Shown: one piece after another, positions 1 to 8,536 of the stretch
Numbering within the stretch: position 1 is the stretch's first letter
How the letters are laid out: every line of letters begins with the position of its first letter
DNA from: Nitrospirota bacterium
GTDB taxonomy: Bacteria; UBA2233
Length of the DNA stretch: 8,536 bases
Reading direction: 5' to 3'
Assembly: GCA_011620345.1 (NCBI GenBank)
Contig: WOZJ01000001.1
Coordinates: 1-8,536 of the forward strand
Translations under genes and position numbers: made by a program
Notes under the pieces: generated by a model
The model's input: only the letters and a program-made list of their open reading frames with translations
What the model was told of the DNA's origin: nothing
Databases searched by the model: none

Positions 1-6
1 CGTCAT
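1..6 (-). other. Possible first codons of a gene downstream of cobT
   Basis: On the minus strand an ATG ACG lies at the very edge of the window, 19 nt after the cobT stop. A GAGAG sequence sits 8 nt before it, a reasonable ribosome binding distance. Only two codons are visible, so no product can be assigned. Another cobalamin-assembly gene such as cobS or cobU would fit cobT's usual neighbourhood, but that is inference only. Confidence 0.2.
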
Positions 7-25
7 GCCCGGTGCTCTCGGGAAC

Positions 26-1039
26 TCAGCCGCCTCGAAGCACGTCCTTTAGCGTGGCCATCTCACGGAACGCTCTCCAAGCGTGCATCAAAAGGCTCGC
101 TGCAAGGATGGCGCCCGTTCCCTCGCCAAGCGCCATGTCGAGCGAAAGAATGGGTCTTGCACACAGCCGCTCGAGCACGGCCTTTGAGCCCGCCTCCCTG
201 CCAACGTGCCCAAAGAACACGCACTTGTCGAGCTCTGGCTCGATAAGCCTCGCTACGAGGAACGCGGCCAAGGAAATGACCCCGTCGAGGACGGCCGGGA
301 TACGCCTTTTTTTAAGCCCCGCGTAGAACCCGGCAAGCGCCGCGATTTCGAGCCCTCCAAGTTCGGAAAGCACGCTGACCGGGTCTTTTGGGTCCGGCCC
401 TCGCTCGTTTAGCGCGCGTGTTACAACCCCTACCTTCTTTTCGTAGCCCTCCGGGTCGAGCCCGGAACCCCTGCCCACGACGCACTCCGGGGCCAGGCCC
501 AAAAGAAGCGCAATGATGGCCGCGGAGGGAGTGGTATTGCCGATTCCCATCTCCCCGCCGATGCCGAGGTTCACTCCTGCCTGGGCGAGGAGCCCCGCGT
601 AGCGCTCCCCAACTTCCAGCGCCCTTTGGACCTCGTTTTCGCCCAACGCTGGGCCCTTCAAAAAGTTGACCGAGCCTTTTCTTATTTTGTCTTGAGAAAC
701 GCCCGGTATTCCTACAGTATCCGCGTCCACCCCCACGTCCGAAACCCAAAGCTTCGCCCCGATCGAGCGGCAGAACACCGAAATACATGCCCCACCGCTT
801 GTGAAGGCCTTGAGCATCAACGCCGTCACTTCTTTTGGGTAGGCGCTAATGCCTTCCTCCGCCACGCCGTGGTCGGCGGCGAACACGACAACGCCGGGCC
901 GAACCTCTTGAACATCGATGCTACCCCATACGGCCGCAAGGTTGGCCGTAAGCTCTTCTAGGCGGCCAAGCGCCCTTTTTGGCTTGGCCTTGCCTTCCCA
1001 CGTAAGGAGCGCATCGTGATACAGCCGCTCATTCCACAC
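26..1039 (-). CDS. cobT: Nicotinate-nucleotide--dimethylbenzimidazole phosphoribosyltransferase (CobT)
   Basis: CobT transfers phosphoribose from nicotinate mononucleotide to a lower-ligand base (5,6-dimethylbenzimidazole or a related benzimidazole), giving the alpha-riboside phosphate for the cobalamin nucleotide loop; it acts in the cytoplasm. Numbering from the GTG start (337 aa, normal for the family): AADHGV at 54-59, GEMGIGNTT at 162-170, VGRGSGLD at 188-195, GHVGREAGSK at 277-286 and LGEGTGA at 304-310. E306 matches the catalytic glutamate of the Salmonella enzyme (E317) and E163 matches its E174, so the enzyme looks active. GTG at 1039 is preferred because GAGGA lies 8 nt before it. 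A TTG at 1054, giving 342 aa and overlapping the previous stop as TTGA, has no convincing ribosome site. It is the last complete gene of the minus-strand acyl-CoA operon, an unusual place for it. Family assignment is near certain; the start is less so. Confidence 0.97.
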   Translation of the reverse strand: MWNERLYHDALLTWEGKAKPKRALGRLEELTANLAAVWGSIDVQEVRPGVVVFAADHGVAEEGISAYPKEVTALMLKAFTSGGACISVFCRSIGAKLWVSDVGVDADTVGIPGVSQDKIRKGSVNFLKGPALGENEVQRALEVGERYAGLLAQAGVNLGIGGEMGIGNTTPSAAIIALLLGLAPECVVGRGSGLDPEGYEKKVGVVTRALNERGPDPKDPVSVLSELGGLEIAALAGFYAGLKKRRIPAVLDGVISLAAFLVARLIEPELDKCVFFGHVGREAGSKAVLERLCARPILSLDMALGEGTGAILAASLLMHAWRAFREMATLKDVLRGG

Positions 1040-1047
1040 GCATTGGG

Positions 1048-1052
1048 TCCTC
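1048..1052 (-). promoter_or_regulatory. Ribosome binding site deciding the cobT start
   Basis: GAGGA on the minus strand sits 8 nt before the GTG at 1037-1039 and overlaps the TGA stop (1051-1053) of the preceding OB-fold gene by two bases. This favours GTG over the upstream TTG and suggests translational coupling between the two genes. Confidence 0.55.
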
Positions 1053-1464
1053 AAGCCGGCCGGAAGGCAAGGTAGGCCTTGGAAACGCCCGCTTCCATTG
1101 CCTTGGGAAAGCCCGCCTTGAGGGGCATTCCGATTTTGATAGTTTCAGGCCTTTTGGTGTCCACGCCTTCGATGCGGCCGACGATCCGGACGCCCTCATT
1201 CAACTCGACAACGCCCACTATGTAGGGGTTGTCCCGGCCGTAACCTTGTTCCGCCATAGACTTAGGAACGACAAAGATCGAGGTGAAGGCGATCAGCTTG
1301 CCATCGCCTTGAAACTCCTTCCATTCGAGCGCGTCCTTGTAGCATTGCACGCAAAAAGGCCTTGGCGGCAAATATATGGCCCCGCATTCCTTGCATTTCA
1401 CGCCCATGAGCTTGGCTTCTTCCATGCCCATCCAATAGCTCAGCTCGTTGAACGACATTTCCAT
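1051..1464 (-). CDS. Zn-ribbon OB-fold protein (DUF35 family), thiolase partner
   Basis: A small 137-aa protein of the DUF35 acyl-CoA-associated OB-fold family. Four cysteines, C24, C27, C38 and C41 (CKEC and CVQC), form the N-terminal rubredoxin-like zinc ribbon. The following beta-rich half (about 50-135), including GKLIAFTSI and a GMPLKAGF segment, is the OB fold. Such proteins pair with thiolases of the SCP-x/archaeal type, as in the archaeal thiolase/HMG-CoA synthase complex and benzoylsuccinyl-CoA thiolase BbsAB, where they help complex formation and CoA-substrate handling. The thiolase gene ends 25 nt upstream, so a heteromeric enzyme is expected here. The ATG at 1464 is chosen because AAAGGAG precedes it by 6 nt. 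The reading frame stays open upstream into the thiolase gene, but that extension has no family similarity and would overlap the thiolase. The acyl substrate is unknown. Confidence 0.9.
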   Translation of the reverse strand: MEMSFNELSYWMGMEEAKLMGVKCKECGAIYLPPRPFCVQCYKDALEWKEFQGDGKLIAFTSIFVVPKSMAEQGYGRDNPYIVGVVELNEGVRIVGRIEGVDTKRPETIKIGMPLKAGFPKAMEAGVSKAYLAFRPA

Positions 1465-1489
1465 CGTGGTCTCCTTTGTTTCCAAATAT

Positions 1490-2758
1490 TTAGCCCTTTT
1501 TCTGGAGGATCGTGAGCGTGCAGGTTCCGCCCGTCCCGCCCAAGTTGTGGGCGGCGCCCACGCGCAAATCGGCGATGGGAACCTGACGCTCCCCGGCCCT
1601 GCCCCTAAGCTGAAGCCAGATTTCGAGGACCTGGGCGACACCCGTAGCCCCCACGGGATGGCCCTTACACTTGAGCCCGCCAGAGGTGTTGATGGGCTTG
1701 GGCCCGCTCCTTCGTGTCAGCCCATCGTTTACCGCCTTGATCCCCTCGCCGGGGGCAAAGAAGCCTAAATCCTCGGTATGGATGACCTCGGCAATGCTGA
1801 AGCAATCGTGTACCTCGGCGATCTGGATATCTTTAGGACCAAGCCCGGACATGGCGTAGGCCTCCTTGGCAGCCTGCTTCGTGGCCTCGAACTGGGTTAG
1901 GTCCTCTTTTAAGTACAAAGGGTACCCCGAGCCCTGACCGAGCCCCACTACATGGACGGGCGTATCGCTAAAGCCCTTGGCAATCTCCTCGGCCACGAGC
2001 AAAAGGCAGCAGGCCCCGTCGCTGATCGGGCTGCAATCAAAAAGCCTCAGAGGCCAGGCAATCTCCGGGTTTACCCTGGGGTCGGAAAGAAAGGCCCGTT
2101 CGTCCTCCCAGCTTGGCACGGGCTGACCCTTAGCCTTCGCCTTTTCGGCCCTCTGGGCCATGAGTTCCTTTATCGTCACGCCGAACTGAGCCTTGGGGTT
2201 GAGCTTTGCGTTCTCGTGGCTTTTGAGCGTCACGGCGAACAAATCGTCCGCGCTCGCCTTGTAGCGCTCAAAATAGGCCGTCGCGATGGTCGCAAAGATG
2301 CCCGGGAACGTGAAGCCCGTTTTCCACTCGTACGGCGAGCTCGCCATGGCAAGCCCCTCGGTCACCTCCTCGGTAGAGCGCTTGGACATCTCCTCGAGCC
2401 CTCCAACGAGCACGATGTCGTACATCCCGGAGGCCACGGCCTGAACGCCCGCCCGGAACGCGAGCGCCGAAGAGGCGCAGGCACCCTCCAGCCTGGCCGC
2501 GGGCCTTGGAACGATCCCTAGCAGGTCGGTAAGAACCGGACCTAAGTGAGACTGCTTGAGAAAGAAATCACTCGAGAAGTTTCCCAGGTAGAGGGCTTCG
2601 ATGTCTTTTGGGTTCAGCCCGTTGTCCACAGAATCCAGCATCTCTAAAAAGGCTTGGGCGAACAGGTCTTTGTAATCTAAACCTTTGAACATTCCGAATT
2701 TGGACATCGCCCCGCCTACGAGGCACACACCCCTTCCTAGCTTTGGGGTTCTTGACAT
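1490..2758 (-). CDS. Thiolase of the SCP-x/archaeal type (acetyl-CoA acetyltransferase-like)
   Basis: A 422-aa thiolase that cleaves or forms a 3-ketoacyl-CoA bond with CoA/acetyl-CoA in the cytoplasm. Visible motifs are the nucleophile C94 in GACASS, the GG-LEEMS segment near 119-125, EVHDCF with H317 and C319, CKGHPVGATG with catalytic H367, and a C-terminal AAHNLGGTGGTC (402-413). The HDCF and HNLGGTGG forms mark the SCP-x/archaeal-like group rather than FadA-type thiolases, which end with a CxGGG loop. Members of this group usually work with a DUF35 Zn-ribbon protein, which is the next gene. The ATG at 2758 follows a perfect AAGGAGG by 7 nt; the frame is open to 3052, but that extension overlaps the upstream gene and lacks similarity. 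The heme DUF3365 gene ends 43 nt upstream. Direction and substrate (degradation or synthesis) cannot be decided from sequence. It is not a HMG-CoA synthase, given the intact thiolase histidine motifs. Confidence 0.93.
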   Translation of the reverse strand: MSRTPKLGRGVCLVGGAMSKFGMFKGLDYKDLFAQAFLEMLDSVDNGLNPKDIEALYLGNFSSDFFLKQSHLGPVLTDLLGIVPRPAARLEGACASSALAFRAGVQAVASGMYDIVLVGGLEEMSKRSTEEVTEGLAMASSPYEWKTGFTFPGIFATIATAYFERYKASADDLFAVTLKSHENAKLNPKAQFGVTIKELMAQRAEKAKAKGQPVPSWEDERAFLSDPRVNPEIAWPLRLFDCSPISDGACCLLLVAEEIAKGFSDTPVHVVGLGQGSGYPLYLKEDLTQFEATKQAAKEAYAMSGLGPKDIQIAEVHDCFSIAEVIHTEDLGFFAPGEGIKAVNDGLTRRSGPKPINTSGGLKCKGHPVGATGVAQVLEIWLQLRGRAGERQVPIADLRVGAAHNLGGTGGTCTLTILQKKG

Positions 2759-2765
2759 GATGCTC

Positions 2766-2772
2766 CCTCCTT
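2766..2772 (-). promoter_or_regulatory. Strong Shine-Dalgarno for the thiolase
   Basis: AAGGAGG on the minus strand, 7 nt before the ATG at 2756-2758. It fixes the thiolase start and excludes the 98-codon upstream extension of the same reading frame. Confidence 0.85.
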
Positions 2773-2801
2773 GGGTGTTTCTTTGGTAGATTCTTTGAAT
2801 C

Positions 2802-3365
2802 CTAACGGTCCGGGCGCTTTGGCCGGAATTCCGCCCAGAATACGCCCCTGAAATCGCCCGCCTTAAACCCTCTTGCTTTATCGCCTGGGTAGAGCGCATC
2901 CAGAATGGCCGCCACGTCCTTATCGAGCCGCTCGCCATGGCATGGCAGGCACATCTCCGCAACAAAAATGGGCTCGACGTAGCCTGCCCACCCCCCTTGG
3001 AGCAAAAGCGCATTAGGAGTCGCCTCGCTCGGGCTCTTTTGGTAAGCCTCAAGGTAGGGAGTAACCCATGACTTGGGCGCGTTGCTTGGGCTTCTTAGCT
3101 TGGGACTCGTTCGGCCAAGTCGGACACTTTGAGAGCTTAGCCTCGAGGCAATTTGGGGCGCCCGCTCCTGGCAGATGACGACGGCGTGCTCTGGCCCTTG
3201 CTTAAGCGCAGCCTTAAGCTCGGCCATCAAGGCTTGCTTGAAAGGGGCGATCAGCATTCGCCCCTGCTCGATCAGCATGGCCTCGCCCTCCCCTTGGGCA
3301 CGCGGGGGAAGCCAAAGCGAAACAACGAAAACCATGGCCAAAAAACCCTTTCGCCTCTTAAGCAT
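2802..3365 (-). CDS. Secreted DUF3365 (Tll0287-like) protein with one heme-c motif
   Basis: A 187-aa protein. The start MLKRRKGFLA and a hydrophobic run to about residue 20, then a small/polar stretch near 21-28, look like a signal peptide (cleavage perhaps around RAQG). The rest matches the DUF3365/Tll0287-like fold: a helical segment with a conserved VICQERAP (63-70), RLGRTSPKLRSPSNAP (82-97), and a late CLPCHG with C139, C142 and H143, the CxxCH signature for covalent heme c. A YPGDKARGFKAGDFRG block (159-174) ends the domain as usual. The family is thought to bind heme in the periplasm and often serves as the sensor part of signalling proteins. Here the domain stands alone with no transducer, so it may be a redox or gas-responsive subunit or an electron carrier. 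The ATG at 3365 has AAAGG 8 nt upstream, overlapping the stop of the BtrH-like gene 11 nt away, so translation is probably coupled. Its link to the acyl-CoA genes is unexplained. Confidence 0.87.
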   Translation of the reverse strand: MLKRRKGFLAMVFVVSLWLPPRAQGEGEAMLIEQGRMLIAPFKQALMAELKAALKQGPEHAVVICQERAPQIASRLSSQSVRLGRTSPKLRSPSNAPKSWVTPYLEAYQKSPSEATPNALLLQGGWAGYVEPIFVAEMCLPCHGERLDKDVAAILDALYPGDKARGFKAGDFRGVFWAEFRPKRPDR

Positions 3366-3376
3366 AAGGCTTGCCT

Positions 3377-4399
3377 TTATTGATTACAGAGTTTCTTATG
3401 GATCTCTTCCCAGAGTCCCTTTTCTATGGCGTAGATATCCCTAAAAAGCTCGCCCGCCCCTCGAAGCCTGTCTTCGTTTTTCTCTTCGGAGGCTTCCTTC
3501 AAAAGCTGGGCCGCCTCGCTCCAGAGTTCGGCAGCTTGTCCCATCCGCTCGGGTGCGTTCATAGCGCAAAGCCAAGGAAGAAAACCGCAGGCTTCGGTTA
3601 GGTACTCCGCGTAGAGTTTGCGGAAATTCCCGCCACCCGTACCGCGGCGCTCGATCGCCTGGTAGCCGAACCTTGCACACCATGCCCAGCGCTCAGGCAG
3701 CTCTCTTGGCCAGCTTTCGACCTCTTGGCCAAGAGCCCTTAAGGCATCCAGCCCTAAAGGGTAGCGCGACTCGAGCAACGATTCGGCGTTTCCCTTTAGG
3801 GCCTTGGCAATCGGCCCTGTCAACCCTTTCACCTCGAGGTTTGCAACGGGTGTAAAGTAGTTTTCCATAGGCCAAGGGCCATGAGGGGAACCCATGGCGG
3901 CCTGCAGGTCCCCGTATGCCAGCTCTTGCCACCCCTCTCTTTCGGTGTCCCCGACAAAGAACACCCTCGAATTATCATCGTAGCCGCCTATCAAAATGCA
4001 GTGGCTAGAAAAATGAGTACTCGATTTGTAGTAGGGGAGGTAGTACAAATCTGTCAGGGCAAGTACGGGTAGATTCGCATTGATCGCCTCCTGAATATCT
4101 AGAAGCGGAAAATCCTTCCTCGGCCGCCAAAAAAAAGGGTAGCCCAGGTTTGTCAAGAAAGGCGGAACGAGGAACAGGCTCCGGCCCGTAAAGAACCTCG
4201 GCACCTGGGCGCGGTCGTCTTTCATGTAGATAAACCCAAGCCCGCTTCCTAACCCAAAGCACAACGCCTCTGAAAACGGATGCCCATGATAGACCATGAC
4301 ATCCCGGAGAGCGGAAGAGCAGCAGTGCGCCCCGGGAATATGCTGCAAACCCTCAACAATCCTAGGCATCGGCCTTCTACCCACACGCAAAGCGTTCAT
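3377..4399 (-). CDS. BtrH-like protein (BtrH_N domain plus DUF4872)
   Basis: A 340-aa protein resembling the N-terminal domain of butirosin biosynthesis protein H followed by DUF4872. The N-terminal half has the expected GAHCCSSALRD (23-33) with candidate nucleophile C26 or C27, then FGLGSGLGF (48-56). SSHCILIGGYDD (131-142) follows, with probable catalytic H133, and FFVGDTE (147-153) has a candidate acidic residue D151. This is the layout of papain/C39-like cysteine enzymes. The helical C-terminal half (about 195-340) matches DUF4872. BtrH itself moves an amino-acyl group from a carrier protein to an aminoglycoside; other members are uncharacterised. No signal peptide or membrane helix is seen, so it is probably cytoplasmic. 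It is the first gene of the minus-strand operon and divergent from an acyl-CoA ligase, so transfer of an acyl group from CoA or a carrier is plausible but inferred. The ribosome site before the ATG at 4399 is weak (A-rich); an internal ATG at 4369 is possible but leaves less before the HCC motif. Confidence 0.85.
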   Translation of the reverse strand: MNALRVGRRPMPRIVEGLQHIPGAHCCSSALRDVMVYHGHPFSEALCFGLGSGLGFIYMKDDRAQVPRFFTGRSLFLVPPFLTNLGYPFFWRPRKDFPLLDIQEAINANLPVLALTDLYYLPYYKSSTHFSSHCILIGGYDDNSRVFFVGDTEREGWQELAYGDLQAAMGSPHGPWPMENYFTPVANLEVKGLTGPIAKALKGNAESLLESRYPLGLDALRALGQEVESWPRELPERWAWCARFGYQAIERRGTGGGNFRKLYAEYLTEACGFLPWLCAMNAPERMGQAAELWSEAAQLLKEASEEKNEDRLRGAGELFRDIYAIEKGLWEEIHKKLCNQ

Positions 4400-4410
4400 T
4401 CATTTCTTTT

Positions 4411-4431
4411 AAGCCTAATCGAAAAAGGCTT
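4411..4431 (-). promoter_or_regulatory. Small hairpin in the leader of the BtrH-like gene
   Basis: In the minus-strand transcript, AAGCCT and AGGCTT form a 6-bp stem around a 9-nt T-rich loop, ending 11 nt before the ATG at 4399. It is next to a weak ribosome site, so it could influence translation initiation. The stem is short and may be chance. Confidence 0.25.
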
Positions 4432-4517
4432 CTGAAAACAAGCCTCGAACTCCCCCAAAAAAGTAAAGATGTTGCCCTACCCCTGATACCGGGCAAGTCA
4501 GCGTCAAAAGCGCCTCC

Positions 4518-4544
4518 CCTTGTAGGCATAGCCTCCATTCAAGG
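4518..4544. promoter_or_regulatory. Nested inverted repeat, candidate operator in the divergent intergenic region
   Basis: CCTTG (4518-4522) and CAAGG (4540-4544) flank a tighter palindrome, AGGC-ATA-GCCT (4524-4534). It lies between the divergent BtrH-like and CoA-ligase genes, where a shared regulator of an acyl-CoA unit would bind. The arms are offset (1 nt on one side, 5 nt on the other), so it could equally be a structured RNA or chance. No regulator gene is present in the window. Confidence 0.25.
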
Positions 4545-4557
4545 CTTGCCCTTTGCA
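4542..4557 (+). promoter_or_regulatory. Candidate sigma-54 (-24/-12) promoter for the CoA ligase
   Basis: AGGCTTGCCCTTTGCA has the GG-N10-GC spacing of sigma-54 promoters (GG at 4543-4544, GC at 4555-4556) and a full TTGCA at the -12 element; the -24 element keeps GGC and the following G but lacks the usual CAC. Transcription would start near 4568, about 80 nt before the ligase ATG. No good sigma-70 pair was found nearby in this direction. No sigma-54 activator gene is visible. Confidence 0.3.
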
Positions 4558-4638
4558 TTCGTGTATGGTAAGAAAGAAAAAACGCCATTTTATGGTTGTA
4601 CATTACCACGGTTTGACAGCAGGAAAAGTATTGTATGC

Positions 4639-4645
4639 AAGGAGG
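4639..4645 (+). promoter_or_regulatory. Shine-Dalgarno deciding the CoA-ligase start
   Basis: AAGGAGG lies 4 nt before the ATG at 4650 and only 1 nt before the ATG at 4647. The earlier in-frame ATG at 4635 lies upstream of it and would place this sequence inside the coding region, so 4650 is the best start. Confidence 0.7.
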
Positions 4646-4649
4646 CATG

Positions 4650-6272
4650 ATGGAAACACGGCAAACACCTCGTTTCCCTTTCGATAGCATAACCGAAGAA
4701 GGCGTCAAAGAGTTGAGGAGGCGATACAACCGGGTCAATCGCTGGGTCGTGGCAGACATGGTAAGAAGGAGCGCCTACCGCTTCCCAAATAAGCCCGCGC
4801 TCATATTCAACGATACAGCGCTTACCTATACCGAGCTCGAGCGGGCGCTCAATAGGGTCGGGAACGCCCTTCTTTCGCTTGGCCTCAAAAAGTTCGACAG
4901 GGTCGCCGTACTCGGCCACAACACGATCCACCACGTCCTGGCCTGGCTCGGGATCCTCAAGGCGGGCGGCATCTACGTCCCATTGAACTTCATGCTCAAG
5001 GGCAAGGAGCTTGCCTACCAGGTCAACCACGCTGACGCCAAGGTGTTGATCGTCGAAGATAGCCTCTTGGGCAACATCGAGGGGGTCTTGGCCGAGCTTC
5101 CGAGCGTGCATCAGCGCATTTGGTCAAACCAGGGCTTCGGTCAGGAGGCGCCAGAAGGCTGGCTGGATTTTGAAGCGTGGATGTCGGGCGCATCAGAAGA
5201 AGAGCCCGATGTAGAACTCTACATCGAAGACCCAGTAGAGATCTGCTACACCTCTGGAACCGAAGCCCTGCCCAAGGGGGCTGTATTGATGAACCAGAAC
5301 CTGTTTGCCCAGTACATGTCCGCCGCGCTCGCCTGCGAGGTTTCGGAAGAAGACGTGGGGCTTAGCGTCATGCCGATCTTCCACGCGGCCGAGCGAGGGG
5401 CCAGGCTCGCCACCGGGCTGCTTGCCGGCATGACCAACGTCCTCATGCTCCTTCCAAACCCCGACGAGGTTTTTCGCTTGATCCAAACGCACCGTGTCAC
5501 CTTGATGTTCTTGCCCACGACCTACTGGATCATGCTGCTCAACCATCCTTCTTTCAAAGAATACGACTTAAGCTCGCTCAAAAAGCCGATGTACGGGGCC
5601 TCCATCATGCCTGTGGCCGTGCTCGAGCAAATTCTTCAGAAATTCCCCGGCTGCAAGGTGTACAACTCCTACGGCCAGACGGAGACCGCGCCGTGCAACT
5701 TCCACCTCGATCCACGCTACGCGCTCACAAAGCCGGGGTCCGCCGGGATGAGCGGGCTCAACATGGAATCAAGGCTCGAAGACGACGCGCATCGCGCTAT
5801 CGAGACTCCCGGCATCCCTGGCGAGATCGTAAGCCGTGGAGGCCACGTGTTCCTTGGCTATTTCAAGGACCCCCAAAAGACCGAAGAGGCCATGGCGCAC
5901 GGCTGGTTCCACACGGGCGACATCGGCGTGGCCGACGAGGACAACTTCGTGAGCATCGTGGATCGAAAAAAGGACATGGTTAAGACGGGCGGGGAAAACG
6001 TGTCTACTCGCGAGGTGGAAGAGGCGATCTACAAAGACCCGCGCGTCCAAGAGGTGGCCGTAATAGGCATTCCAGACCCAAAATGGGTGGAGGCGGTCAC
6101 GGCCGTCATCGTCCCAAAGCCCGGGAGTACCATCAAGGAAGAAGAAATTCTAAAACTTTGCAGGCAAGACTTGGCAGACTTCAAAGTGCCCAAGCATGTC
6201 GTTTTCGTAGAGGAGCTCCCTAGATCGAGCTCGGGCAAAATCTTAAAGCGTGAGCTACGCAAACGCCTCTAG
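4650..6272 (+). CDS. AMP-forming acyl-CoA ligase (long-chain/medium-chain fatty acid type)
   Basis: This 540-aa ANL-superfamily enzyme activates a carboxylic acid with ATP to an acyl-adenylate and then a CoA thioester. Motifs: the P-loop YTSGTEALPKG (200-210, with E-A where most members have T-G), MPIFHAAE at 241-248, YGQTETAP at 341-348, HTGDIG at 421-426 with ribose-binding D424, DRKKDMVKTGGENVS at 438-452, and PRSSSGKILKREL at 524-536. In the last, K530 is the adenylation-step lysine. Length and order are complete for a FadD/medium-chain-type ligase; an aryl or alicyclic acid substrate is also possible. No membrane segment is seen. It is transcribed away from the BtrH-like/thiolase operon across a 250-nt intergenic region, so it may supply that operon's acyl-CoA, though this is inference. 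The start at 4650 is set by the AAGGAGG just upstream; starts at 4647 or 4635 add one or five residues. Confidence 0.93.
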   Translation: METRQTPRFPFDSITEEGVKELRRRYNRVNRWVVADMVRRSAYRFPNKPALIFNDTALTYTELERALNRVGNALLSLGLKKFDRVAVLGHNTIHHVLAWLGILKAGGIYVPLNFMLKGKELAYQVNHADAKVLIVEDSLLGNIEGVLAELPSVHQRIWSNQGFGQEAPEGWLDFEAWMSGASEEEPDVELYIEDPVEICYTSGTEALPKGAVLMNQNLFAQYMSAALACEVSEEDVGLSVMPIFHAAERGARLATGLLAGMTNVLMLLPNPDEVFRLIQTHRVTLMFLPTTYWIMLLNHPSFKEYDLSSLKKPMYGASIMPVAVLEQILQKFPGCKVYNSYGQTETAPCNFHLDPRYALTKPGSAGMSGLNMESRLEDDAHRAIETPGIPGEIVSRGGHVFLGYFKDPQKTEEAMAHGWFHTGDIGVADEDNFVSIVDRKKDMVKTGGENVSTREVEEAIYKDPRVQEVAVIGIPDPKWVEAVTAVIVPKPGSTIKEEEILKLCRQDLADFKVPKHVVFVEELPRSSSGKILKRELRKRL

Positions 6273-6291
6273 GAGTCCTCGCCAAAGAGGC
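6265..6291. terminator. Possible bidirectional terminator hairpin between convergent genes
   Basis: GCCTCT (6265-6270) pairs with AGAGGC (6286-6291), and the 15-nt loop contains a second small palindrome, AGGAGTCCT (6271-6279). It straddles the CoA-ligase stop and ends just before the stop of the convergent transporter gene. Neither side has a T-tract, so it is not a classic intrinsic terminator; it could still stall transcription or protect the 3' ends. Confidence 0.3.
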
Positions 6292-6296
6292 CAAGG

Positions 6297-7169
6297 TTAT
6301 ACCTCAACCCCGATGTAGTGATTGACGGCCTTTCCGATGCCAAAGTTGAGGACCGCAACGCTAAGGCAGACCGTGCACATTTCTAGGAAGCGGCGCTTGA
6401 AGGGCAGGTCTTGGGCCAAGGAGGTGTAGAAGGCAAACGCTGCCACGATCAGCACGACAAGGGAAAACGAAAGCCCGAGGCTTATGAACGGGTTGGTCAG
6501 CACAAAGAAGGGGAAGATTAACATTGTTACCGTCAACACGTAGGCAAACCCCGTAAGAAGCCCAGACTTAACCGCGTTTTTCCCTTCTTCTTCCCTTGCC
6601 GAGAGGTACTGCGACGCCGTCATGGACATCGAGGCGGCCAGCCCCGTAATTAGCGCAACCAACGCGATTGTTTTTGGGTTGCCGAGAGCGAGCGTCAGCC
6701 CGGCAAGCACGCCGGTAAGCTCAATCAAGGCATCCGATAGCCCCAAGATAATGTCGCTCGTGTACTTAAGTCGGTCTTCTTCGATGAGGCCCAAAAGGGC
6801 GTGCTCAAATTCCTCTTCTTCTTGGATCATCCGCTCGATATCCGCGATCTCCGGTATGCCCGCTTTGAGCTCGATCAGCGCCCGCATGTTCGATTCCTCA
6901 ACCCGTTCGATCAGTTTGATCCCGAAACTCAACCCAAAAATCCTTGCGATCCAGGTCAAGAATAAGACCTTAAGCCTCGAGGGAGCAACGTCTTTGTTTG
7001 TCAGCCGTTTCCAGAAATCGTAGTGGGAGCGCTCGACGGCAGCGATCTTTTTTAGTACCTCCTTGTTCCTTGGCTCGGACACGACGCGAGCAAGATTCGC
7101 GTAAATCTTGGATCCGGTCACTTCTTCGCGCTGACGCTCTAGAAGCCGCTTGGCTAAAAGCTCCGCCAT
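6297..7169 (-). CDS. Ferritin-like domain fused to a VIT1/CCC1-type Fe/Mn transporter
   Basis: A 290-aa fusion protein. Residues 1 to about 130 form a rubrerythrin/ferritin-like helical domain with diiron-type ligands: E15/E16, the ERSH pair E46 and H49, E88/E91/E92, and E120 with H123 in an acidic QEEEEFEH run. Residues from about 136 to the end form a VIT1/CCC1 membrane domain with about five hydrophobic helices (near 138-162, 165-185, 205-225, 228-250 and 262-285), including LSDALIELTG (144-153) and MTASQYLSAREE (183-194), the typical charged metal-path motifs. The architecture matches MbfA-like proteins, which export iron and protect against iron or peroxide stress, so export of Fe(II) or Mn(II) from the cytoplasm is likely. 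The ATG at 7169 has AGAGGG 5 nt upstream. The GGDEF gene ends 27 nt before it, implying cotranscription. The exact metal cannot be read from the sequence. Confidence 0.92.
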   Translation of the reverse strand: MAELLAKRLLERQREEVTGSKIYANLARVVSEPRNKEVLKKIAAVERSHYDFWKRLTNKDVAPSRLKVLFLTWIARIFGLSFGIKLIERVEESNMRALIELKAGIPEIADIERMIQEEEEFEHALLGLIEEDRLKYTSDIILGLSDALIELTGVLAGLTLALGNPKTIALVALITGLAASMSMTASQYLSAREEEGKNAVKSGLLTGFAYVLTVTMLIFPFFVLTNPFISLGLSFSLVVLIVAAFAFYTSLAQDLPFKRRFLEMCTVCLSVAVLNFGIGKAVNHYIGVEV

Positions 7170-7196
7170 GGTTTCCCTCTTTTACAATTGTAAGTA

Positions 7197-8465
7197 CTAG
7201 CGGTTTTGCGCTCCGAGGCGCTTTCTTCGTTGCTCTTGGTACAGCGCCGCATTGGCCTGGCGGATGAGACCTTCCTTATCAAAGGGAATGCCTAATGCCA
7301 CGGAAATCCCAAAACTAAGCCCAAAAAACCAGGCATTCTCTGCCTTGGCCCTCTCGACCGTCGCCATAACGCGCCCGATGATGTTTTTTAGCACCTCTTC
7401 GTCCGCCCCGGGAAGGATCGCGGCGTACTCGTCGCCTCCCACCCTCGAAACGATGTCGTCTTTCCTGAATGCATTCATAAGAATGTTGGCGGCGAGCTGA
7501 ATCGCCTTATCGCCTAGCTTATGGCCAAACCTGTCGTTGGTTTCCTTCAGGTTGTCGATATCCGCCACGATCAGCCCAATAGGAACAAGCCTTCCCTTAG
7601 AAAGCCGCTCAAGCTCTTTTTCGAAATAAGGCCGGTTGTAGAGCCCTGTGAGCGTGTCGTGGAAGCTGTAGTATTTCAGCTCCTCTTCGAGCCGTTTGAT
7701 GTCCGAAATGTCGGTCAGAACGCAAACGGCCCTTTCCTTCTTCCAGGTTTCGAGCGTGCTAAGGAGCGCGAGCGAAGCGATGACGTACGTCCTCGTTTGA
7801 TCTTTCCGGATCAGCTCGACCTCCGTCCGTACGGGCACATCGAGTGAGAGCACCTTCGTAAGGCCATCCCGGAATTCGTACAGGTCTTTCTTGGAGAACA
7901 GCTCAAACCACGAAAAGGCCGGTTCTATGAGCTCGGCCTCCTTGTAGCCCGTAAGGGACTCGGTGACCCTGTTCACATCGTAGACCCTGCCATCCTCATC
8001 CAGCACCAATACGCTATCGGAGGCGTTGTCCACGATTTCCCGGAAGTACCGCTCGGAATCTTCTAGCCGTCGCTTGAGCCGCTCGATCTTTGTAACGTCC
8101 CTGACGATCAGCGCAAACAAAGGGCCGTCATTTTCTTCGGTTGCCTTCCCCAGGCATGCGACCCACAAGGCTAAATCTAGCCTCTTGCCGTCTTCGAGAA
8201 CATGCGCAAGCTCGAGCTCTAGAGGCATTTCCAAGGCGCTGGCCTTTTCCATACCCGCCCGAAGCGCGCTTACCTGATCTTCTAGGAGCGCCTTGAGAAG
8301 CGAGCGTTCACCCGCCAAGGGAGTAACCTCTCGAGAAAACAGCATCTCAACGAAACGATCGTTGGCAGCGAGAACGGTGAGGTTAGAATTGACGATCGCC
8401 AACCCCTCCTTTGCCTTCGCAAACATTCGGACAAGACCGTCTCGAAAGTGCTCCAAGGGTTCCAT
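7197..8465 (-). CDS. PAS-PAS-GGDEF diguanylate cyclase
   Basis: This 422-aa cytoplasmic protein makes cyclic di-GMP from two GTP. An N-terminal PAS-like domain (about 12-125) ends in FALIVRDVTKIERLK. A short coiled linker leads to a second PAS domain (about 138-257), which starts YFREIVDNASDSVLVLD, has NRVTESLTGY, and ends VLTDISDIKRLEEELK. The GGDEF domain (about 265-412) begins FHDTLTGLYNR and carries metal-site D302 in ADIDNLK. It has an intact GGDEY active loop (343-347) and an RxxD inhibitory site, RKDD (334-337), five residues before it, so activity and product inhibition are expected. The usual ALYxAK end is ALYQEQ followed by a basic tail. No membrane helices are seen, so the signal is intracellular; no heme or flavin pocket can be assigned by eye. 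The ATG at 8465 has AAGGA 7 nt upstream. It leads the transporter gene 27 nt downstream. Confidence 0.94.
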   Translation of the reverse strand: MEPLEHFRDGLVRMFAKAKEGLAIVNSNLTVLAANDRFVEMLFSREVTPLAGERSLLKALLEDQVSALRAGMEKASALEMPLELELAHVLEDGKRLDLALWVACLGKATEENDGPLFALIVRDVTKIERLKRRLEDSERYFREIVDNASDSVLVLDEDGRVYDVNRVTESLTGYKEAELIEPAFSWFELFSKKDLYEFRDGLTKVLSLDVPVRTEVELIRKDQTRTYVIASLALLSTLETWKKERAVCVLTDISDIKRLEEELKYYSFHDTLTGLYNRPYFEKELERLSKGRLVPIGLIVADIDNLKETNDRFGHKLGDKAIQLAANILMNAFRKDDIVSRVGGDEYAAILPGADEEVLKNIIGRVMATVERAKAENAWFFGLSFGISVALGIPFDKEGLIRQANAALYQEQRRKRLGAQNR

Positions 8466-8504
8466 GGGGCCATCCTTTTCGTTCGTTGGGAAACTTTTTT
8501 CCTT

Positions 8505-8513
8505 ATTCTAGCA
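8505..8513 (-). promoter_or_regulatory. Candidate extended -10 promoter of the GGDEF/transporter operon
   Basis: On the minus strand TGCTAGAAT gives an extended -10 (TG-N plus TAGAAT, five of six matches to TATAAT), about 40 nt before the GGDEF ATG, with transcription expected near 8498. No good -35 is seen at 16-18 nt, which an extended -10 can tolerate. The upstream gene is outside the window, so read-through cannot be excluded. Confidence 0.4.
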
Positions 8514-8536
8514 GCAATTGCAAGCGGACAAAGCGC

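Follow-up and report, generated by a model that had tools for sequence, protein, structure and literature searches.

Cysteine-protease-fold enzymes of antibiotic pathways include CcbD and LmbD (lincosamide), CtaG (closthioamide), AziU3 (azinomycin) and BtrH (butirosin). In CcbD a carrier-bound acyl group is first loaded on the cysteine and then handed to an amine; the enzyme also accepts fatty acyl groups and binds its carrier via arginines (PMC12945683). For CtaG, the proposed reaction is the transfer of hydroxybenzoate onto a beta-alanyl chain (PMC6772006). The description given for BtrH is that of an acyl carrier protein:aminoglycoside acyltransferase (PMC10318531), and CtaG and CcbD have both been called acyl/peptidyl transferases that act in antibiotic pathways. 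A BtrH gene is also part of the acetone-induced cluster of Desulfoscipio (Desulfotomaculum) geothermicus DSM 3669, together with thiolase, DUF35 and coenzyme A (CoA) ligase genes (Frey et al. 2021, PMC8084838). Here we analyse an 8,536-nt stretch of a Nitrospirota bacterium of the UBA2233 lineage (assembly GCA_011620345.1, contig WOZJ01000001.1, positions 1 to 8,536, forward strand), referred to as the window, which spans all 8536 bases of its contig (G000:C33), part of a 1.8-Mb genome, and carries a BtrH-like gene. The gene families at the locus are all known; its unexplained element is an acyltransferase of the CcbD/CtaG fold in a catabolic acyl-CoA setting.

Results

The BtrH-like gene (3377..4369, minus strand) is present in a single copy in the window's genome and encodes a BtrH_N-DUF4872 cysteine acyltransferase-like protein of 330 aa. 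The open reading frame (ORF) is open to 4399; the ATG at 4369 is probably the start, because the upstream ATG is altered in the sister species G001 (UBA2233; deposited as Nitrospirae bacterium UBA2233) and most homologues begin at about this point. The protein passes the BtrH_N model (PF14399; 102.2 vs 29.7 bits) followed by DUF4872 (PF16169; 97.7 vs 28), which together span its whole length. It is 30-41% identical to relatives in Bacillota, Chloroflexota, Dadabacteria, Desulfobacterota-type bacteria and Gammaproteobacteria. The triad Cys16-His123-Asp141 (330-aa numbering) and the motif YQxIExRGTGGGxFR are invariant in 44 homologues.

Sequence searches for solved relatives of the protein found none, and the fold search alone produced matches. 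The AlphaFold model (mean pLDDT 95.5) matches the two-domain fold of CtaG, CcbD and AziU3 over its own full length, with Z 21-22 over ~290-300 residues and Foldseek E of 2.5e-9 to 4e-6; the next matches, at Z 14 and below, cover the papain-like half only. The Cys-His-acid triad is common to the window protein, CtaG (variants C11/H128/D144) and CcbD (Cys-His-Glu). An earlier note, made from the letters of the window, had given the protein a cysteine acyltransferase fold, and fold and triad bear this out. Both the predicted fold and an acyl-cysteine chemistry have good support in our view. The window protein nevertheless differs from CcbD, CtaG and AziU3 in its sequence (11-14% identity), in the absence of an adjacent carrier-protein or non-ribosomal peptide synthetase gene, and in its catabolic acyl-CoA setting. 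Its C-terminal helix is acidic where CcbD has arginines (net charge -4, with a family mean of -2; the CcbD residues were not aligned). The sole NCBIfam model that matches the protein, over most of its length, is NF053550 (DarH). We rejected the DarH-type acyltransferase as its equivalog, the score being 85.7 bits against a cut-off of 300, and no dialkylresorcinol genes lie nearby. A literature search turned up no paper mentioning DUF4872.

The acyl-CoA genes of the locus encode a thiolase, its DUF35 partner and a ligase. The DUF35-dependent (non-decarboxylating) thiolase (1490..2758, minus strand; 422 aa) matches Thiolase_C_1 at 143 bits. It is followed by a DUF35/ChsH2-type thiolase partner with Zn-ribbon and OB-fold (1051..1464, minus strand; 137 aa; PF01796 58.4 bits, PF12172 37.9 bits). 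The best solved relative of the thiolase is 6esq_A (E=6e-69) and that of the DUF35 protein 6esq_E (E=1e-15), so that the pair matches two chains of one entry. The features of a thiolase/DUF35 complex are present: adjacent genes, Zn-ribbon and OB domains, an active-site Cys and the sequence GHPxGATG (residues taken from the translation). In comparison with the archaeal-type acetoacetyl-CoA thiolase/DUF35 pair of 6esq, whose genes are likewise adjacent, the window has no 3-hydroxy-3-methylglutaryl-CoA synthase gene beside the pair, and its thiolase carries an insert of ~34 residues (about 198-231; window 2066-2167) that splits the profile matches in two. The closest relative of the thiolase (64%, in G022) shows a profile match split at the same position. 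That relative lies in a cluster with a DUF35 partner, 3-hydroxybutyryl-CoA dehydrogenase, acyl-CoA dehydrogenase (ACAD) and, by inspection, electron transfer flavoprotein-like subunits, a setting that points to beta-oxidation as the probable context of the window pair. The AMP-forming fatty acyl-CoA ligase (4647..6272, plus strand) passes the PRK08316 subfamily model NF006182 at 672.6 bits against a cut-off of 663. Its ORF is open from 4635, and the start is probably at 4647/4650, because the ATG at 4635 sits just before the ligase's own AAGGAGG.

On the minus strand the window carries cobT, the DUF35/OB gene, the thiolase gene, a DUF3365 (Tll0287-like) gene and the BtrH_N-DUF4872 gene, facing the PRK08316-type ligase on the plus strand. 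The five identities given in the earlier note (BtrH-like, DUF3365, thiolase, DUF35/ChsH2 OB and CoA ligase) agree with Pfam matches, all of which exceed the gathering score, and the intergenic gaps it lists (11, 43 and 25 nt) are correct. The co-directional run, counted there as four genes, comprises five, as cobT directly follows the DUF35 gene. The same note gave every gene its own Shine-Dalgarno sequence; this is strong for the thiolase, DUF35 and ligase genes but weak for DUF3365 and BtrH. From the spacing we infer that the five minus-strand genes would share one transcript.

G001 keeps the gene order, with proteins 92-98% identical, and third-codon-position changes exceed those at first and second positions in every window gene. 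On these grounds we take the window genes to be real and under purifying selection. In G001 the five-gene run ends convergently ahead of a carbonic anhydrase gene, with three more CoA ligases in the flanks. The surroundings of the operon there (L010 and L011, G001:C53) form an acyl-CoA island. Alongside the three extra CoA ligases and the carbonic anhydrase it includes another thiolase, whose partner contains an OB domain, and, by eye, putative CoA-transferase subunits and TRAP transporter genes.

The conservation of the neighbourhood was surveyed in one scan that gave 80 BtrH loci, some of them cut by contig ends. The earlier note had named a lack of conserved adjacency across genera as what would refute its cluster, and by that measure the complete cluster fails: the BtrH-DUF3365-thiolase-DUF35 set was found only in the genus-mate and is confined to one genus. 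DUF3365 and cobT likewise stand beside BtrH only in the genus-mate and in none of the 79 other loci, and the DUF35-thiolase pair adjoins BtrH only in the genus-mate and at locus L029 of D. geothermicus. What the survey does show across genera is a weaker association of BtrH with acyl-CoA genes. An acyl-CoA gene lies at most two genes from BtrH in 12 of 40 non-redundant loci, where 6.2 are expected (p=0.002, permutation in which another gene of the same locus served as the centre); the enrichment p values rest on a simple gene caller and few seed sequences, with three neighbourhood widths tried. The permutation test was used instead of a near/far Pfam tally (120 proteins each), which was too coarse and left one-member families unlisted.

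The strongest cases of this association are L049, L041, the Alcanivoracaceae and D. geothermicus. In L049 the BtrH stop overlaps the CoA ligase start as GTGA, and in L041 two CoA ligases lie directly upstream of BtrH. The conserved order in Alcanivoracaceae is Metal_hydrol, BtrH, thioesterase, ligase, ACAD, ACAD and GMC oxidoreductase. One or two 4HBT proteins occur within the BtrH run in L073 (7081-16481) and other Alcanivoracaceae, and a second Metal_hydrol gene closes it; no description of the Metal_hydrol-BtrH-4HBT-ligase run was found in the literature. In HRbin37 (locus L027) a thiolase (5854-7359) lies one gene from BtrH; its C-terminal extension has no Pfam match and, judged by eye, looks like the OB domain of DUF35 proteins minus their zinc ribbon. 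BtrH genes of this branch, as noted for L003/L049 and G414 (L138), have very few carriers in any one order, with 4 carriers among 113 genomes around D. geothermicus, and this patchy spread suggests horizontal transfer.

Locus L029 is from the same strain as the published acetone-induced cluster, and its gene order fits the published locus tags; by position we assign tag 101190 to the DUF35 protein. The proteins of L029 are 41% (BtrH), 42% (thiolase), 34% (DUF35) and 33% (ligase) identical to those of the window. Homologues of these four genes are induced together there on acetone, which agrees with the functional grouping put forward in the earlier note. That cluster differs from the window in adding a thiamine diphosphate (TDP) enzyme, a B12 mutase, HGD-D and ECH and in lacking DUF3365 and cobT. 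Two mutases were found in the window's genome (assembly 97% complete), with MRQYAGF and MRQFAGF where the D. geothermicus mutase has QRQLVGF. We take the variable residue to be a substrate-class site, with Tyr and Phe presumably marking the methylmalonyl-CoA and isobutyryl-CoA types and Leu the one in D. geothermicus. Both mutases being of other types, we rejected the acetone (2-hydroxyisobutyryl-CoA) pathway for the window's genome; the gene set is common to the window and D. geothermicus, the substrate not evidently so.

The DUF3365 gene (2802..3365, minus strand) encodes a protein of 187 aa that scores 51.4 vs 24.1 bits against the Pfam family now named Tll0287-like and matches the solved Tll0287 (5b82, E=2e-6). 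It has a hydrophobic, signal-peptide-like N-terminus and a single CxxCH motif for heme c, CLPCH at residues 139-143. We rejected it as a functional partner, as the neighbours of its relatives are unrelated, with single cases of a nearby ACAD and acetate-CoA ligase. The last gene of the run, cobT (26..1039, minus strand; nicotinate-nucleotide--dimethylbenzimidazole phosphoribosyltransferase; TIGR03160 369.3 bits, cut-off 319.3), begins within ~12 nt of the DUF35 stop (GTG at 1039) or overlaps it as TTGA (TTG at 1054). A one-base length difference from G001 at window 1036-1056 puts the cobT ATG of G001 out of frame here, so that the window gene must start at GTG or TTG, unless the difference is an assembly error. 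DUF3365 and cobT are probably passengers, co-transcribed with no role in the BtrH reaction.

The intergenic region that separates the ligase from the divergent BtrH operon (4370..4646), put at 250 nt in the earlier note, measures 235 nt between the listed ORF starts and ~277 nt with the probable starts, and is 98.6% identical to G001. A stretch of 290 nt (4458-4747), overlapping the divergent region and the ligase start, is identical in G001. A terminator-like hairpin and T run (minus strand, 4446-4425) lies between this stretch and BtrH in an attenuator-like placement. A search of the region against Rfam matched no family, and its folding was no better than that of shuffles. We therefore rejected a leader RNA; the high identity seen here is equalled within the GGDEF gene, where a run of 292 nt is likewise identical.

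Beyond the ligase, the minus strand encodes a VIT1 protein and a PAS-GGDEF protein. The VIT1-type membrane protein (6297-7169) has an N-terminal ferritin-like region with a weak COQ7 match, and is possibly an iron/manganese transporter carrying its own ferritin-like domain.

Discussion

We tentatively favour, with rather less than even confidence, the reading that the locus joins an acid-activation and thiolysis set, made up of the PRK08316-type ligase and the DUF35-dependent thiolase pair, to a BtrH-family acyltransferase that draws on an acyl thioester. The ligase would charge a fatty or organic acid as a CoA ester, and the thiolase/DUF35 pair would cleave, or in reverse form, a 3-oxoacyl-CoA. 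The BtrH-like enzyme would take one such acyl group onto its cysteine by a ping-pong mechanism, as in CcbD, and would then pass it to an amine or hydroxyl acceptor. Acyl-CoA appears likelier as the donor than a carrier protein, given the lack of an adjacent carrier gene and the acidic C-terminal helices. Much the same acyl transfer was modelled in the earlier note, and the fold, the triad and the co-induction of homologues in D. geothermicus speak for it; the full neighbourhood with DUF3365, which that note also described, occurs in one genus only. Further points in favour are the invariant YQxIExRGTGGGxFR motif, the acceptance of fatty acyl groups by CcbD, the modest enrichment of acyl-CoA genes near BtrH, the overlap of BtrH and ligase in L049 and the beta-oxidation setting of the closest thiolase/DUF35 pair.

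Several observations weigh against this reading. The intact gene set does not recur outside the genus among the 80 loci, and in 28 of the 40 non-redundant ones the two nearest genes on either side of BtrH include none for acyl-CoA metabolism. The enrichment, computed with the same gene caller and seeds, is weak without Gammaproteobacteria (7 of 34 loci, 3.8 expected, p=0.04). The BtrH protein nearest to that of D. geothermicus, in G414 (50%, same order), lacks thiolase and DUF35 neighbours. The CoA ligase is divergent and outside the operon, a single helix's charge says little about the donor, and the BtrH branch falls far below the DarH cut-off.

It is a real possibility, although we lean away from it, that co-transcription is incidental: the ligase and the thiolase/DUF35 pair would perform beta-oxidation of fatty or organic acids, and BtrH, DUF3365 and cobT would be unrelated to it and to one another, their place on the transcript being peculiar to this genus. 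The confinement of DUF3365 and cobT to the genus among the 80 loci is consistent with this, as are the unrelated neighbours of DUF3365 relatives, the many BtrH genes (that of G414 included) that lie away from acyl-CoA genes, and the richness of the island in such genes, where any insertion would land near one. Against it stand the independent recurrence of BtrH with a ligase or thiolase/DUF35 in several phyla and the co-induction in D. geothermicus.

The BtrH-like protein might instead be an acyl-CoA thioesterase or editing hydrolase, in which water resolves the acyl-cysteine and CoA is recycled or dead-end acyl-CoAs are cleared. A papain-like triad permits hydrolysis, and gammaproteobacterial BtrH genes lie beside 4HBT thioesterase-like and acyl-CoA dehydrogenase genes. 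We consider this unlikely, since the homologues that share the full-length fold and have a known role act as transferases, and the 4HBT thioesterases already present in the gammaproteobacterial loci would make BtrH redundant. An anaerobic acetone pathway like that of D. geothermicus, in which cobT would provide B12 to the mutase, is highly improbable. The BtrH, thiolase, DUF35 and ligase families are common to the acetone-induced cluster, and cobT is in the operon, but the mutases of the window's genome carry Tyr and Phe where D. geothermicus has Leu (on our presumed meaning of that site), and the window genes have no TDP lyase, HGD-D or ECH gene next to them.

A wider reading, about which we are more doubtful, is that a widespread branch of the BtrH/CcbD fold acts in primary metabolism, moving fatty or short-chain acyl groups straight from CoA in anaerobes and hydrocarbon degraders, the acetone-induced D. 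geothermicus protein included. Were the linkage incidental, nothing would set the window apart from other acyl-CoA loci. The solved full-length relatives come from antibiotic pathways, and members of the putative catabolic branch occur in Alcanivorax, sulfate reducers, Chloroflexota, Dadabacteria and the window's lineage. If true, a role of this branch in primary metabolism could account, in anaerobic ketone degradation, for the acetone-induced protein of D. geothermicus, to which the accessible part of the report assigns no role (PMC8084838).

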